DNA from: an uncultured Arthrobacter sp.
GTDB lineage: Bacteria; Actinomycetota; Actinomycetes; Actinomycetales; Micrococcaceae
NCBI RefSeq assembly: GCF_947495145.1
Contig: NZ_CANLXP010000008.1
Span: 62,001-126,000 of the forward strand
DNA length: 64,000 nucleotides
Reading direction: 5' to 3'
Part shown: positions 58,418 to 64,000 of the stretch, piece after piece
Layout of the letters: each line of letters opens with the position of its first letter
Numbering within the stretch: position 1 is the stretch's first letter
Translations under genes and position numbers: made by a program
Notes under the pieces: model-generated
What the model saw: only the letters and a program-made list of their open reading frames with translations
Databases searched by the model: none
What the model was told of the DNA's origin: nothing

Positions 58418-58490
58418 GGGGCTTTAGCTCAGTTGGTAGAGCGTTTCGTTCGCAATGAAAAGGTCAGGGGTTCGATTCCCCTAAGCTCCA
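58418..58490 (+). tRNA. tRNA-Ala (anticodon CGC)
   Basis: A 73-base cloverleaf: acceptor GGGGCTT/AAGCTCC (one G-U), D arm GCTC/GAGC, anticodon stem TTTCG/TGAAA with loop TTCGCAA, variable AGGTC, T arm AGGGG TTCGATT CCCCT, discriminator A. The anticodon CGC reads the alanine codon GCG. The 3' CCA is not encoded. A tRNA end is a common integration site, and accessory genes follow on the right. Confidence 0.95.
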
Positions 58491-58651
58491 CTCTCCCCGC
58501 ATAACGGCGCGTTTCTTCAACTTCGGCGGCTCGGTAGCCAGCTTCGCATGCCGGGAGCCGTTCGTGTTGCTGGAGTCGGCTAATAGGTTGAACGCCCGTC
58601 AGCGCGAACTCGTCCTGCACGGTCCGGGTGCTCTTGGCTGAGGACTAATCC

Positions 58652-59281
58652 CTAGACTACGAGGTTGCTTGTGAAGCCGATGCTTCTTGCAGCGTTGGCG
58701 ACATCTGCCGCGATGGCAGGAGAATTTAATGGAACCGAGAACTCCGGACTCGAAGGCATCGCCCGGTTGTTCCACAAAGCGATGACTCGTCGTCCACCGA
58801 CCATCGCGGAGGGAGCCAGCACGCCGTCGAGATCGGGCCATGCTGCATGGATGGCCCGCGCCCACGCGCCGGTCCGGCGCTTCTCCTGCAGTGCGACCTG
58901 CGCGGAGGCGCCAGCGCGGGTCAGCCAGGGGCCGGTAAGATCAGCCAAACTAACATCGGCGGCGGTCCGGATGGCCGTGACATACGGCGCATGGCGGTCG
59001 ACATCGACGAAGCGGGTGAGCTGGAAGACCTCACCGAGGCAGGTGTCCACGCTCTCACCCAGGTAGGCAGCGCCCAGAGGTGCGTAATCTCCAGCTGGCT
59101 CGGGATGCGGGTCCCAGCGCGAGCTTGGTACAGGCCCCCAGGTGCGAAGGCCGTTCCACGGTGTGGGGTGGGGTGAACTCGTGAAGTGGATTCGCCACAG
59201 CACCGTTCCTTGACCGAGCGTGTGAGTCTCACAGCCGATGCGGTGGAGATCGTCTACGCCCGGCGGGTACTGACTCGGCAT
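58652..59281 (-). CDS. RES-domain toxin
   Basis: A 209-residue RES protein. VLWRIHFTSSPHPTPWNGL carries the conserved Arg, SSRWDPHPE and AAYLGESVDTCLGEVF carry the Glu region, and ALWNNRAM lies near the conserved Ser region. RES toxins studied elsewhere degrade NAD+ and belong to type II modules with Xre/MbcA-type antitoxins. The start ATG overlaps the antitoxin stop (ATGA), so it is produced from the same transcript, antitoxin first. It lies 162 bp past the tRNA. Confidence 0.85.
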   Translation of the reverse strand: MPSQYPPGVDDLHRIGCETHTLGQGTVLWRIHFTSSPHPTPWNGLRTWGPVPSSRWDPHPEPAGDYAPLGAAYLGESVDTCLGEVFQLTRFVDVDRHAPYVTAIRTAADVSLADLTGPWLTRAGASAQVALQEKRRTGAWARAIHAAWPDLDGVLAPSAMVGGRRVIALWNNRAMPSSPEFSVPLNSPAIAADVANAARSIGFTSNLVV

Positions 59282-59877
59282 CAGTGTCCGGCCGCCAGGT
59301 CCTCCGCCAGATCAACCACGTGATCCACCAACCCACCCCCGAGGAGCCATTCCCGGGGCGACACTGCTGCTCCGTTCAGCACCAGATCTGGCTGCGGTGT
59401 GGTGAAGAAACCGGCCACAGATTGCGGGTGCATATCTTCTGGGAGGACTGTCAGTACCCGACCGATGGAAGGCAGTGCTGCTTGGCCGGTGAACTGCCAG
59501 AGCGGGAATCGTAGCTTGCCGCCGATGGTGACGGCATGCAGCTTGTTCTCACGGCGGTAATGCCGAACCGTGGATGCGTCGACTTTGAGGCGCTTTGCGA
59601 CTTCCTCGGCTGTCAGCGCATCAGCCTCGAGCTGCACCTGCGCAACGACATTCTCAACCGAGGGCAGAGCGGACGTGCCCGAATTTGCGATGCCGGAATG
59701 CTGCTCCCAGAAGCTCTTATCCTGAGACGACAAACCGACGGTTGCCGTTGGGCGCTCCATGCGCCGCAGGGCGACCACCAGGTCCCCCTCGCTGAAGGAG
59801 GGTCGACGGGACTCCATCCACTGCGCGACCGTCGTAGGTTCGGCCGAACGACGCTTCGATTTCGAGCTGGTCTGCAT
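59281..59877 (-). CDS. Antitoxin of the RES module with MerR/excisionase-like HTH
   Basis: A 198-residue protein. The middle part LTAEEVAKRLKVDASTVRHYRRENKLHAVTIGGKLRFPLWQF is an excisionase/MerR-type helix-turn-helix with wing, not the Cro-type HTH common to Xre antitoxins. The C-terminus LNGAAVSPREWLLGGG resembles the toxin-binding (MbcA/ParS/Xre-C) domain. The N-terminal ~70 residues are not recognised. The role as antitoxin and autorepressor is inferred from gene order and the C-terminal motif. Confidence 0.78.
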   Translation of the reverse strand: MQTSSKSKRRSAEPTTVAQWMESRRPSFSEGDLVVALRRMERPTATVGLSSQDKSFWEQHSGIANSGTSALPSVENVVAQVQLEADALTAEEVAKRLKVDASTVRHYRRENKLHAVTIGGKLRFPLWQFTGQAALPSIGRVLTVLPEDMHPQSVAGFFTTPQPDLVLNGAAVSPREWLLGGGLVDHVVDLAEDLAAGH

Positions 59878-60103
59878 GACTGCCTCCTACTTCCCACAGT
59901 CTACTCGAATCAGATTGATTGTGGCAGAGTCGCGAGTTGGGGCCCGTTGCAAAGACCCGGCCCCGCCGCCTCACTCTTCTTTCCCGCTCCAAGGAAACAG
60001 CAAGCCCAGCCTCGCATCCTTGAGGCAGGAGCAGCCGTGTGTACGAGCACGAAAGCTCCTTTGCCGGGCGGGGCCGCCCACCCCAGGAGCCGCCCCGCCC
60101 CGC

Positions 60104-60904
60104 TCAACCTTTCAGCGGCTGGCATCGGGGGCACCACCAGGTCCGGCGGCGTCCCGGATCGCCGGGCACTTCGGCACGCACAAGGATGGTTGTGCCACAG
60201 CGCAAGCAGGGTCTGTTTGCCCGTCCGGCCACCCAGTGCTGCTCTCCCTTGCGGGTGTTGCCGGTGGTGACCTGGTGGGCCCCAGGCTGTGTGGCGGAGA
60301 AGCGCAGGCAGCGCGCCCCGAGGGCAACCAGGGCCGGCACATCGATGGCACCGATCGCCGTATCCGGGTGAACGCCGCGCAGGAAGCAGAGTTCGCTAGC
60401 CCACAGGTTGCCGAAGCCAGCCACGTTGCGCTGGTCGAGCAGGGCCGCCGCCACGCGCTGCCCAGGATCATCGGAGAGGCGCCGGGCGGCCTCCTTGGCC
60501 GACCAATCATCCCGTAGCGGGTCGGGCCCGAGGTGACCGATGACGTCGCCCTCCGCCCGCGTGAAAAGCAAGTCGACCACTGGCAGGTTCAACCCGTACG
60601 CGGTCGGCCCATCGTCGGTCTCAAGGATGACGCGCACCTCGGGAAGAAGTCTCCGTGGAAGCCGCTTGCCAAGAGCTGTGATCGTCCACGAGCCCTGCAT
60701 CTTCAGATGCGTGTGCAGGGTTAGGCCGGAATCGAGCCGGGTCAAGAGGTGCTTGCCGTGAGTGTCGTGCTCGATCACCCGCACACCGTCCAGGGCGTCT
60801 GTGGCATGTGCGGGAACTCGGAGATCGCCGCGCTTGAGTGCACGGCCGTCGAGAGCTTTCCGCAGCCGTGCCGCGAGCCGGAAGACACTGTCGCCTTCAG
60901 GCAT
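60104..60904 (-). CDS. Fpg/Nei-family DNA glycosylase (endonuclease VIII-like)
   Basis: A 266-residue base-excision repair enzyme that removes oxidised bases and cuts the strand. PEG at residues 2-4 provides the N-terminal Pro nucleophile and catalytic Glu3; KHLL around residue 51 gives the conserved Lys; DQRNVAGFGNLWASELCFL is the helix-two-turn-helix; the C-terminal zinc finger is CLRCG ... WWCPRCQ. It resembles the actinobacterial Nei2 group. Monocistronic. Confidence 0.93.
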   Translation of the reverse strand: MPEGDSVFRLAARLRKALDGRALKRGDLRVPAHATDALDGVRVIEHDTHGKHLLTRLDSGLTLHTHLKMQGSWTITALGKRLPRRLLPEVRVILETDDGPTAYGLNLPVVDLLFTRAEGDVIGHLGPDPLRDDWSAKEAARRLSDDPGQRVAAALLDQRNVAGFGNLWASELCFLRGVHPDTAIGAIDVPALVALGARCLRFSATQPGAHQVTTGNTRKGEQHWVAGRANRPCLRCGTTILVRAEVPGDPGRRRTWWCPRCQPLKG

Positions 60905-61117
60905 GCCGCCCGCTCATTTCTTCGCGTCCTCCGCGGGTTCGATCAGGTGTGGCCGGGATGTCCGTCATCTGCGCCACATTCCAGGACCGACGCAGCTCGG
61001 TCCGGGCCTTTCGGATCTCAAAGGAGCTGACCAGATCGGTCTTGTTTCCTGCCAATACGGAGCGTCCGCACATGCGATCGATTGTGCCTCATCGGGCCCC
61101 AGGGTGTTCCCGGTGCA

Positions 61118-61849
61118 TCAGGCGTCGAAGTAGGTGTTCGCTGATCCTCCGGAGACGTTTTGGACGATGCGTTCAGCGATCTCGCGTAGCTTCACGTTCT
61201 GCTGGCTGGAGGCACGATGCAGTATTTCAATTGCTTCTTCTTGGGTGCACCGGTTCTGCGCCATGATGATGCCGGCGGCCAAGTCGATGGTGGTCCGGGA
61301 CCTCATGGCAGCTTCGAGGTCGTTCGCGCGGTCGGTTTGCGCGGCCACCCGAACGGCCAGCTGCAGCGCCTTCGCGGCCTGCGCGGCGTACGCTTCCGCT
61401 GTCTCCACAACGTCGGGCGTGAATGTGTTCGGCTCCTGCGCGTAGAAGTTCAGGGCTGCACCTCCTCTGGCGCCGATGAACAATGGCACTCCCAGCATGG
61501 AATAGAAGCCCTCGTCTTTCACGGCACTGAAGTAGGCCGGCCAACGGTCGTCGGTGCGCACGTCGGTGATGACTGTGGTCTGCTGCGTGGCGATGGCGTT
61601 CAGGCAGGGACCCTCGTCGTAGCCGTACTGGATCTCATCCAGCTTGCGGGCGGCCTCGCTGCTGCTGGCTACCGTGGTGGGCCTCTTCTGGCGGACGAGC
61701 GTGACACCGCAATGCACCAGGACGTCCGCGCCGAGAATCTTGGAGGAAAAGATGGCGAGATCATGCAAAAACCTGTCGGTGTCGTCGCTGCTGATGAGCA
61801 GGTCCTGCAGGTGCTCTGCCATCGGCCTACCCACGTTCACTGAGTCCAT
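61118..61849 (-). CDS. GAF-ANTAR transcription antitermination regulator
   Basis: A 243-residue regulator. Residues about 20-165 form a GAF sensor domain (YDEGPCLNAI, DDRWPAYFSA, MLGVPLFIGARGGAALNFYA), and the last ~60 an ANTAR RNA-binding domain (MRSRTTIDLAAGIIMAQNRCTQEEAIEIL). ANTAR proteins bind paired hexaloop RNA hairpins to prevent termination. ATG 61849 is chosen over an upstream TTG. No obvious ANTAR hairpin target was spotted near the gene. Confidence 0.92.
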   Translation of the reverse strand: MDSVNVGRPMAEHLQDLLISSDDTDRFLHDLAIFSSKILGADVLVHCGVTLVRQKRPTTVASSSEAARKLDEIQYGYDEGPCLNAIATQQTTVITDVRTDDRWPAYFSAVKDEGFYSMLGVPLFIGARGGAALNFYAQEPNTFTPDVVETAEAYAAQAAKALQLAVRVAAQTDRANDLEAAMRSRTTIDLAAGIIMAQNRCTQEEAIEILHRASSQQNVKLREIAERIVQNVSGGSANTYFDA

Positions 61850-61936
61850 CGGTCCACTATAAAACCGGTGCAATACAGATCCGCGTTTTCGCGTGCTGGC
61901 GCACCGTCCTGGTGTTTGATGCCTGCTCGTGTCTCG

Positions 61937-62572
61937 TCAGTGGCTGATGAATGGCATTTCGTGAACGTAGGTACGGTCATCAATCTGGGTGAGAATGAAA
62001 TCGGCGAGGTCATCCCGGCTGACCTGCGTGCTCGCATTCACTCCGACCCAGCCCACACGGTAGGAACCGGTGCCCGGCGACTCGGTCAGGCGGGGGCCTC
62101 GTACTACCGTCCAGTCCAGTCCGCTCGCTTCGAGCACCTTCAGATGGCCTTCAGCATCGGCAAGCACCCGCCCGGACAGTACCTTCAACAGTAGCCGGAT
62201 GACCCGATCCGGGAGTTTCGGCTCGTCCTTGCCTACCGCTTTAAGCCCTCCACCGGACAAGCTGATAATGCGCCGGACACCGTGGCGTTGCATCGCCTCC
62301 ACAACGTTTCGGGTTCCGTCGGTCTGCAGTGTCGCCGGTGAACCTTTCACCTGCCCGAACAGGCTCAGTACCGCGTCTGATCCCTGCACGGTCGCTTCGA
62401 CGCCACGTGTGTCGAGGACGTCGCCTTCAATTATGGTCAGCCGTTCGTTGTGCACGTCGATCTTGCTGGGATTCCTAGCAAGCGCCCGCACCGTATATCC
62501 AGCCTCGAGGGCTCGGTGTAGTACACGGCGGCCGGTCTTGCCGGTACCACCGAACAGCGCGATAGTCGTCAT
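61937..62572 (-). CDS. NAD(P)H-binding protein, NmrA/biliverdin-reductase-B-like
   Basis: A 211-residue atypical SDR. The nucleotide motif is IALFGGTGKTGRRVLHRAL and the second strand VRALARNPSK; IISLSGGGLKAVGK and WTVVRGPRLTESPGTGSYRVG follow. The C-terminal SRDDLADFILTQI is typical of this family. ATG 62572 is preferred over a TTG upstream. It likely binds NADPH and reduces a flavin or quinone, or serves as a redox sensor. Divergent from the DUF2397 gene. Confidence 0.87.
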   Translation of the reverse strand: MTTIALFGGTGKTGRRVLHRALEAGYTVRALARNPSKIDVHNERLTIIEGDVLDTRGVEATVQGSDAVLSLFGQVKGSPATLQTDGTRNVVEAMQRHGVRRIISLSGGGLKAVGKDEPKLPDRVIRLLLKVLSGRVLADAEGHLKVLEASGLDWTVVRGPRLTESPGTGSYRVGWVGVNASTQVSRDDLADFILTQIDDRTYVHEMPFISH

Positions 62573-62871
62573 TACCGGTACTTTAGTCGGCAATGCGTGG
62601 TCGTCCTAGGGACAGAATTCGGGCAGCGATCCTGCAGCGGCCACAGGGACCCGACCATCGCTCCCGCCTTTGCGGCACTCGTGCGGGAACTACTTGCCAG
62701 CATTTAGCCAGTTGGGGGAGCAGCCGAACAAGCATCATCGTGAGTCTCTGAATCGTACTCAAGCTTCAGGAAGAGCCAGCCCTCGGAGCTTGGGTGCGCC
62801 TCGTCGGTGGATCGCCTCGGAACGATGGAGACATCGAAGATGGTCGGCGGCTCGTGAAAGAATTGGCTGCC

Positions 62872-64000
62872 GTGACGGACCTCCCATTTTCCACTGCGCC
62901 AGCAGGAGCCGATGGCGCGTCGGATAGCTACGGCCCCTTCGCCTACCTCAGCGCGCCCAACGCGCAGCTGTACCGGCGTGTGATGCGTGTGTTGATGTCC
63001 GAGAAGGAGCGGTTTACTGTTCACGTGCGCCCGGAACAAATATGGAAGGCACTCGGAAACGATGGCGGAGAACCAGTCGAGGAAAGTGCGGTCACCGAAG
63101 CGCTGGAGCGGCTGTCCCAGTCCACCTGGGCCAACGTGCTCGCCTTTCCCGACTCGACCAGGGTCACGGCGCTGGAGGACTTCTACCGACGCCGGATGCT
63201 CTATCAGCTGTCGCGGCAGGGCGAGGCCGCGGAGCGGGCATTGGCTCAGTACGACGCGGCGTTGGGCACCCGAGGCGCGCTCCAGTCGGTGGCCCTTGAG
63301 GACATCGCGGTGCTGCTCACCAACCTTCGGGACGTCGTTGCTAACCAGAGGGCGGACGAGGCGGTAGATGCGGCGCTGACCCACCAGACCCTGCGCAGTC
63401 TTCGCGAGCGTTTCGTCGAACTGGCGGAGAACGCCGTGGCGTTCATGGGCTCGATGCAGCGCACCATTGACCTCCACGACGCAGACGTGGAGGCATTCCT
63501 GGCGTACAAAGAGGAGCTTATCGCCTACCTGGAGCGGTTCATTCACGATCTACTCACCCGCGGCGCCTTGATCGTCGAGCTGCTGGGCAGCATCCCGGAG
63601 GAGGGGGTGCGGTTCCTCGCGGACACCGCCGCCGAACGTGAGGCTATCGATGCGGCACCGGCCGAAGTCGACACGGCACGTGCCGCGGCGCGGGAGACCT
63701 GGTTGCGGCAGTGGTCGGGGCTGAGCGACTGGTTCATCGGCACACCCATGCGGGAGAGCGAGGCCAAGCTGCTGCGGGCTCGTGCGCGGGCGTCCATCCC
63801 GGCACTGCTCGCGGTGGTGCGCGCCCTGCACGAGAAGTCCGGCGGGCGAACCGACCGGACCCAGGACTTCCTGACCCTGGCGAGGTGGTTCGCTACCCTT
63901 CCCACCGACGCGGACCGTCACCGGTTGTGGCGCTCGGCCTTCGCCCTGACCCCTGTGCGCCACCTCAGCGTCACGGCAGCGACCGAGGACGCCTGGGCTG
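62872..64000 (+). CDS. jetA: DUF2397 protein, JetA subunit of type III Wadjet system (5' part)
   Basis: An open frame of at least 376 codons runs to the right edge. The protein fits DUF2397/TIGR02677: GPFAYLSAPNAQLYRRVMRVL, KERFTVHVRPEQIW, LDDFYRRR-like ALEDFYRRRMLYQLS, and VRFLADTAAEREA. In the defence literature DUF2397 is the JetA (kleisin-like) protein of type III Wadjet, which recognises and cuts circular plasmid DNA together with JetB (DUF2398), an SMC-like JetC and the nuclease JetD. Those genes would lie to the right. GTG 62872 (VTDLPF) is the best start; GTG 62854 and GTG 62794 remain possible. Confidence 0.82.
   Translation, partial: MTDLPFSTAPAGADGASDSYGPFAYLSAPNAQLYRRVMRVLMSEKERFTVHVRPEQIWKALGNDGGEPVEESAVTEALERLSQSTWANVLAFPDSTRVTALEDFYRRRMLYQLSRQGEAAERALAQYDAALGTRGALQSVALEDIAVLLTNLRDVVANQRADEAVDAALTHQTLRSLRERFVELAENAVAFMGSMQRTIDLHDADVEAFLAYKEELIAYLERFIHDLLTRGALIVELLGSIPEEGVRFLADTAAEREAIDAAPAEVDTARAAARETWLRQWSGLSDWFIGTPMRESEAKLLRARARASIPALLAVVRALHEKSGGRTDRTQDFLTLARWFATLPTDADRHRLWRSAFALTPVRHLSVTAATEDAWA

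Follow-up and report, generated by a model that had tools for sequence, protein, structure and literature searches.

The Arthrobacter genome analysed here, that of a soil-type actinobacterium, very probably carries a horizontally acquired, complete and apparently intact jetABCD operon encoding a type II Wadjet. The operon lies in an island of 12.9 kb that abuts the 3' end of the tRNA-Ala(CGC) gene. The window (the whole 64,000-nucleotide stretch that was analysed, G000:C8:62001-126000) belongs to a source genome of 3.55 Mb in 57 contigs that is 99.97% complete, and its right edge falls within jetA, the first gene of the operon. The genes past that edge were read from a stretch (L002) extending beyond it, where the window coordinate equals the L002 position + 58000; coordinates beyond 64000 are given below as window equivalents.

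A GTG at window position 62872 starts a frame that runs off the right edge, and the 376 residues of this frame within the window match PF09660 (E 1.2e-96, 325 bits, cut-off 28.5) and TIGR02677 (E 3e-102, 343 bits, cut-off 166), family matches to DUF2397 that are far beyond chance. The frame had been proposed from the sequence alone to encode a DUF2397 protein, the JetA component of Wadjet, and both profile searches support that proposal. The whole jetA gene lies on the plus strand from 62872 to window-equivalent 64500 (62872-64000 in the window; L002:4872-6500) and encodes 542 aa, the full-length protein scoring 459 bits against PF09660 (E 3.5e-137) and 487 bits against TIGR02677 (E 4.8e-146). 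The DUF2398, SMC-like (TIGR02680) and DUF3323/DUF2399 genes that were predicted to follow are indeed present past the window edge, all on the plus strand: jetB (window-equivalent 64497-65795, L002:6497-7795; 432 aa) matches PF09661 (E 2.1e-96) and TIGR02678 (E 3.9e-96); jetC (window-equivalent 65740-69885, L002:7740-11885; 1381 aa) matches TIGR02680 (1181 bits) and PF13558; and jetD (window-equivalent 69882-71267, L002:11882-13267; 461 aa) encodes a DUF3323 (PF11796) and a DUF2399 (PF09664) domain and matches TIGR02679 (E 2.8e-79). The genes are ordered A-B-C-D on one strand and overlap by 4 bases (A-B), 56 bases (B-C) and 4 bases (C-D), and all four products match curated families over the cut-offs. 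The four-gene Wadjet operon is complete.

The Wadjet types were reportedly defined by Doron et al. in 2018, and a 2022 paper by Deep et al. is said to be one of the mechanistic studies of Wadjet. Three types, I-III, are distinguished (PMC12647877). The best PADLOC-DB families for the four proteins encoded here are JetA2 (580 bits for full-length JetA), JetB2 (429 bits), JetC2 (1366 bits) and JetD2 (364 bits). By sequence, JetC and JetA match the chains of PDB entries 9qe0/9qe1 with E 3e-80 and E 8e-29, respectively; JetB matches them with E 1e-12 using an 18-sequence profile and with E 0.22 as a single sequence, and the JetC hinge with E 3e-28 using a 16-sequence profile. An AlphaFold model of the JetC hinge (pLDDT 90.9) has 9qe0_A as its best Foldseek match (TM 0.74 by query length), the two JetC chains of 9qe0 ranking top (TM 0.74 and 0.67) and archaeal SMC hinges following at ~0.3. 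Entry 9qe0, released in 2025, is titled 'Neobacillus vireti Wadjet-II JetABC dimer'. Because of the type II best matches in PADLOC and the homology to the Wadjet-II of 9qe0, the system is a type II Wadjet, the equation 'type II = DUF2397' being taken from the labels in PADLOC-DB and from how 9qe0 is titled.

The sequence-only reading had instead labelled the system type III. Wadjet type labels are easily confused, and JetD does match one type III model in PADLOC, JetD3, weakly (23 bits, E 1e-5, against 364 bits for JetD2); this is the sole type III model matched. Each of the four proteins scores best against a type II family, by hundreds of bits, and the solved homologue, 9qe0, carries Wadjet-II in its title, so type III was rejected and keeps next to no probability. 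The earlier type label is a mislabel, and the gene families named along with it are correct.

The type II operon is apparently intact, as far as its sequence can tell. The jetA, jetC and jetD genes are full length and free of internal stops. The Walker A, SGGE signature and Walker B motifs of JetC are invariant or nearly so in an alignment of 16 sequences, which takes in two distant ones (40 and 30% identical). In JetD, the TOPRIM residues E320, D377 and D379 are invariant in 23 of the 23 aligned sequences, and the H-x-D-x-D motif (H375, D377, D379) likewise shows no exception. The jetB product is 432 aa long here vs 415-416 aa in seven aligned relatives; compared with the jetB of relative G022, a one-base difference near the 3' end puts the tail in another frame and abolishes the 4-base overlap with jetC. 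The alteration is limited to the tail past residue 410 and is probably harmless; it is possibly a sequencing error, a natural change being the other option. Divergent last residues and a lost 4-base coupling to jetC are also what a decaying or silent remnant might show, complete on paper yet no longer working, but with the jetB change confined to the tail, the other three genes undamaged and the catalytic residues of JetC and JetD kept, such a remnant is very unlikely.

The predicted fold of JetD agrees with this picture of an intact operon in part of its length. A model of JetD (pLDDT 88.9) has as its top Foldseek matches the MksG nuclease of C. glutamicum (8b7f, E 3e-6) and the JetD of P. 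aeruginosa (7til, E 7e-5), with low whole-chain TM values to both (0.26-0.33 by query length). A second structural comparison gave Z 14.7 for 1d3y (Topo VI A; rmsd 6.4, 234 residues), Z 14.2 for 8b7f (rmsd 2.8, 161 residues aligned) and Z 11.6 for 7til (rmsd 9.7, 293 residues). The clear agreement of the model with known nucleases thus lies in its C-terminal nuclease half, the remainder superposing poorly. A sequence search of the PDB with JetD gave no match.

The left boundary of the island is the tRNA-Ala(CGC) gene (58418-58491, plus strand; ARAGORN), with synteny to relatives G002, G034, G004 and G022 ending at 58492-58494. From there the island occupies the window to its edge (58492-64000) and continues to ~71347, and nothing between 58494 and 71348 matches the syntenic stretches of G002, G034 and G004. 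Synteny resumes at 71348-71411 in these three genomes and in G022 and G018; this right boundary is an inverted repeat, likely a terminator, ahead of a DUF3618 gene. The ~12.9 kb island thus starts directly at the tRNA 3' end and holds a RES/HTH pair, three other genes and jetABCD. The RES-domain protein (58652-59281, minus strand; 209 aa; PF08808, E 3.3e-15) is likely the toxin of a RES toxin-antitoxin pair, and the HTH protein encoded just upstream (59281-59877, minus strand; 198 aa; PF12728 HTH_17, E 2.6e-9) is, from its position, likely the antitoxin. This HTH protein also weakly matches excisionase-type and PADLOC mad1 HTH models. The island passengers are an Fpg/Nei-type DNA glycosylase (60104-60904; PF01149, PF06831), a GAF-ANTAR regulator (61118-61873; PF03861, PF13185) and an NAD(P)-binding, NmrA/SDR-like protein (61937-62593; PF13460, E 2.4e-42), all on the minus strand, and jetA starts 4.4 kb from the tRNA. 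A tRNA gene and a RES pair had been placed in the same stretch as jetA, with a defence island suspected; both are there, and the synteny break against relatives puts jetA and the RES pair in one tRNA-bounded accessory island.

Neither a duplicated tRNA 3' end at the island's far boundary nor a direct repeat of at least 18 bases pairing its two ends was found. The island holds no tyrosine integrase, and the four Phage_integrase matches of the genome are all on other contigs (C3, C9 twice, and C35). Because this island has neither a duplicated tRNA end nor a tyrosine integrase, we infer its entry route from relatives. The MarR gene found at this locus in relatives is missing here, and the island contains no convincing MarR remnant (best tblastn E 0.87). 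Downstream of the island, L002:15826-17715 encodes a metallopeptidase-like protein with three S-layer homology domains.

The same tRNA site is empty in G002, G034, G004 and G023, which carry just the MarR gene before a DUF3618/holin-like gene pair. In G022, a jetABCD of its own begins 193 bases past the tRNA and is followed by HipA and other genes and then by MarR and the DUF3618/holin-like pair. The genes between the type II Wadjet and MarR in G022 (L033:5498-9520) include, besides HipA, a small adjacent ORF with weak HTH matches and an MFS transporter. G018 carries, before the MarR/DUF3618 flank, a CBASS set (patatin, CD-NTase cyclase and E1-E2), an AAA ATPase that is weakly AriA/GajA/Old-like in PADLOC, and a TrwC relaxase (L031:2266-15529, on G018:C42). 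This CBASS cargo appears to use the same tRNA-Ala site, a link that we infer, the tRNA of G018 being on another contig.

Integrases accompany the tRNA in further relatives. In Arthrobacter sp. H5 (G028; Micrococcaceae), whose contig is NZ_KI915030.1 reversed, jetA starts ~620 bases beyond a partial, 49-base copy of tRNA-Ala (L035:7605-7653), and a tyrosine integrase gene (L035:8422-9648) lies on the other side of that copy, just upstream of the type II Wadjet. A relative of this integrase (31-37% identity) is found within 1.5 kb of the tRNA in G005, G007 and G013, where a 34-35 base copy of the tRNA 3' end also lies 8-15 kb from the tRNA (L095, L104 and L114), and G014 has a similar 3'-end copy on a separate contig. 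Because integrases and copies of the tRNA 3' end occur at the same tRNA in these relatives, tRNA-Ala(CGC) very likely acts as a genuine attachment site within the genus.

Over-cut-off DUF2397 matches were found in three of the 35 genomes of the genus (this genome, G022 and G028), in 5 of 57 relatives, in 4 of 295 genomes drawn from the family and in 31 of 396 drawn from the order. Among the genus, relative and family sets, five over-cut-off loci belong to the family, and two of these have an intact tRNA-Ala(CGC) beside jetA: those of G022 and of Tersicoccus phoenicis (G085; locus L042, to part of which L126 is identical). The remaining three are G028 with its partial tRNA copy, this genome with its tRNA 4.4 kb away, and G296, with no tRNA within ~1.5 kb. 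Outside the family, 29 genomes had an over-cut-off match and 28 a scannable locus, several with flanks shortened by contig ends, and a tRNA within ~1.5 kb was found at 0 of these 28 loci; the scan thus gives no support for type II Wadjets being tRNA-linked throughout the order. A Nocardioidaceae MAG in the named set has a tRNA-Met ~250 bases before jetA.

The JetA, JetB, JetC and JetD of the operon are 82, 87, 76 and 75% identical to those of Georgenia subflava, respectively, at an RpoB identity of 76%, whereas Tersicoccus, of the window's own family, has an RpoB identity of 88% vs 81% for JetB. In a JetA+JetB tree (28 rows, midpoint-rooted, with two very long branches, G035 and G048), the genus's three copies cluster with that of G. 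subflava (98/96), leaving Tersicoccus outside; the two remaining Georgenia attach at 94/93, slightly under the tool's mark, with Gordonia and Microbacterium branching nearby. Because the Jet identities compare in this way with RpoB, and the tree groups the copies with G. subflava, the operon appears to have moved horizontally between families, with either direction possible. JetA relatives were present in 19 of 72,556 plasmid records, all at <60% identity, and in 0 of 50,697 phage records, and so no carrier plasmid or phage was seen as a recent vector.

Cross-family transfer, the island location and the patchy occurrence in the genus (3/35 genomes) bear on whether the operon serves defence at all. 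JetABC is homologous to MukFEB, and search tools confuse Wadjet and Muk systems (PMC9252829), and the genes could thus be read as a MukBEF/MksBEF-like chromosome-organising condensin. The operon, however, also encodes a nuclease, JetD, whose TOPRIM residues are conserved, and together with the transfer, the location and the distribution this makes a condensin extremely unlikely. As a Wadjet, jetABCD belongs to a known class of bacterial machines whose characterised members destroy small DNA circles such as plasmids.

In PMC12647877, a dimeric JetABC motor is described as extruding a plasmid, and JetD as cutting it once extrusion is complete; the reconstituted N. vireti Wadjet-II is described there as having one JetB per JetC dimer and a channel-less hinge, and as cleaving naked circles with obstacle bypass not seen. 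By analogy with characterised Wadjets, JetC (SMC ATPase), JetA (kleisin) and JetB (KITE) would form a loop-extruding motor that reels in circular DNA; full extrusion of a small circle would lead the motor to activate the TOPRIM nuclease JetD, which would cut the circle and cause loss of the plasmid. The JetC hinge, modelled as a monomer, is closest to the N. vireti hinge of 9qe0. Because it resembles this hinge, described as channel-less, the motor is predicted to stall and cut at DNA-linked obstacles, with no bypass through the hinge. The main target might also be other circular mobile DNA (circular integrative elements or circularised phage genomes) and not small plasmids, since the system is placed where integrative elements use one tRNA site and the circular form of a rival element is a plausible target. 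Against this, characterised Wadjets, one Wadjet-II included, cut circular DNA without sequence preference and act on plasmids, as stated in PMC12647877 and PMC10586767, and such a specialisation is unlikely.

Compared with known systems, the operon is of the same type as N. vireti Wadjet-II (nvJET; 9qe0/9qe1), with JetA, JetB and JetC homologous by sequence, a similar hinge fold and a JetC of 1381 vs 1371 residues. The two differ in their remote sequences and distant hosts, and in the tRNA island and adjoining RES pair found here. The type II Wadjets of Georgenia, Tersicoccus phoenicis and Arthrobacter sp. H5 have the same gene order and 67-90% protein identity; the Tersicoccus copy adjoins tRNA-Ala(CGC) and the H5 copy a partial one, whereas the three Georgenia loci have no tRNA in the flanks examined. 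In the flanks examined of L035 and L039-L043, tblastn (E 1e-4) found no relatives of the island's RES, HTH, Fpg, ANTAR and NAD-binding genes. Type I Wadjet/MksBEFG systems (E. coli GF4-3, C. glutamicum, P. aeruginosa) share the four-part architecture, the nuclease fold and the proposed mechanism, but belong to other families (DUF3375, DUF4194) and have a shorter JetC, and the type I JET of E. coli has a hinge with a channel (PMC12647877).

The same genome also carries a complete type I Wadjet, on C14 (L155:4081-10889, minus strand), near a contig end and outside the window, with PADLOC scores of 621 (JetA1), 277 (JetB1), 1286 (JetC1) and 418 bits (JetD1) and a JetC of 1133 aa. Of 38 genomes of the genus, 11 have a type I JetA; this genome is the sole one of the three with type II that does. 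Two Wadjets in one strain are already known from Weizmannia coagulans XZL9, with types II and III (PMC8954581).

The kind of system is ordinary and its location is interesting. Following the operon past the window edge corrected the subtype label and revealed a complete system where the window showed just an edge. A 2023 review notes that most work had been on type I and that characterising types II and III would reveal mechanistic differences (PMC10586767); one type II complex has been solved since (9qe0, 2025). Defence islands and hotspots in E. coli (PMC10121019) and P. aeruginosa (PMC10250203) likewise have defence genes swapped at fixed chromosomal places, in other taxa and at other sites than the tRNA-Ala(CGC) of this Micrococcaceae genus; among open-licence papers, none was found that places a type II Wadjet beside tRNA-Ala in Arthrobacter or other Micrococcaceae.

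The comparison with empty sites connects a type II Wadjet with integration at a tRNA and with cross-family transfer. A broader proposal, speculative and on balance rather improbable, is that tRNA-Ala(CGC) serves Micrococcaceae as a permanent site at which anti-plasmid defence is exchanged: modules of type II Wadjet would arrive on tRNA-targeting elements, the elements would lose their integrase, and the modules would guard the site against later circular elements, with a closed-hinge Wadjet-II beside an open-hinge Wadjet-I in this genome, so that circles escaping one motor would be caught by the other. With a type I Wadjet alongside a type II whose hinge is predicted to be closed, this genome offers a natural setting in which to ask why bacteria maintain two.
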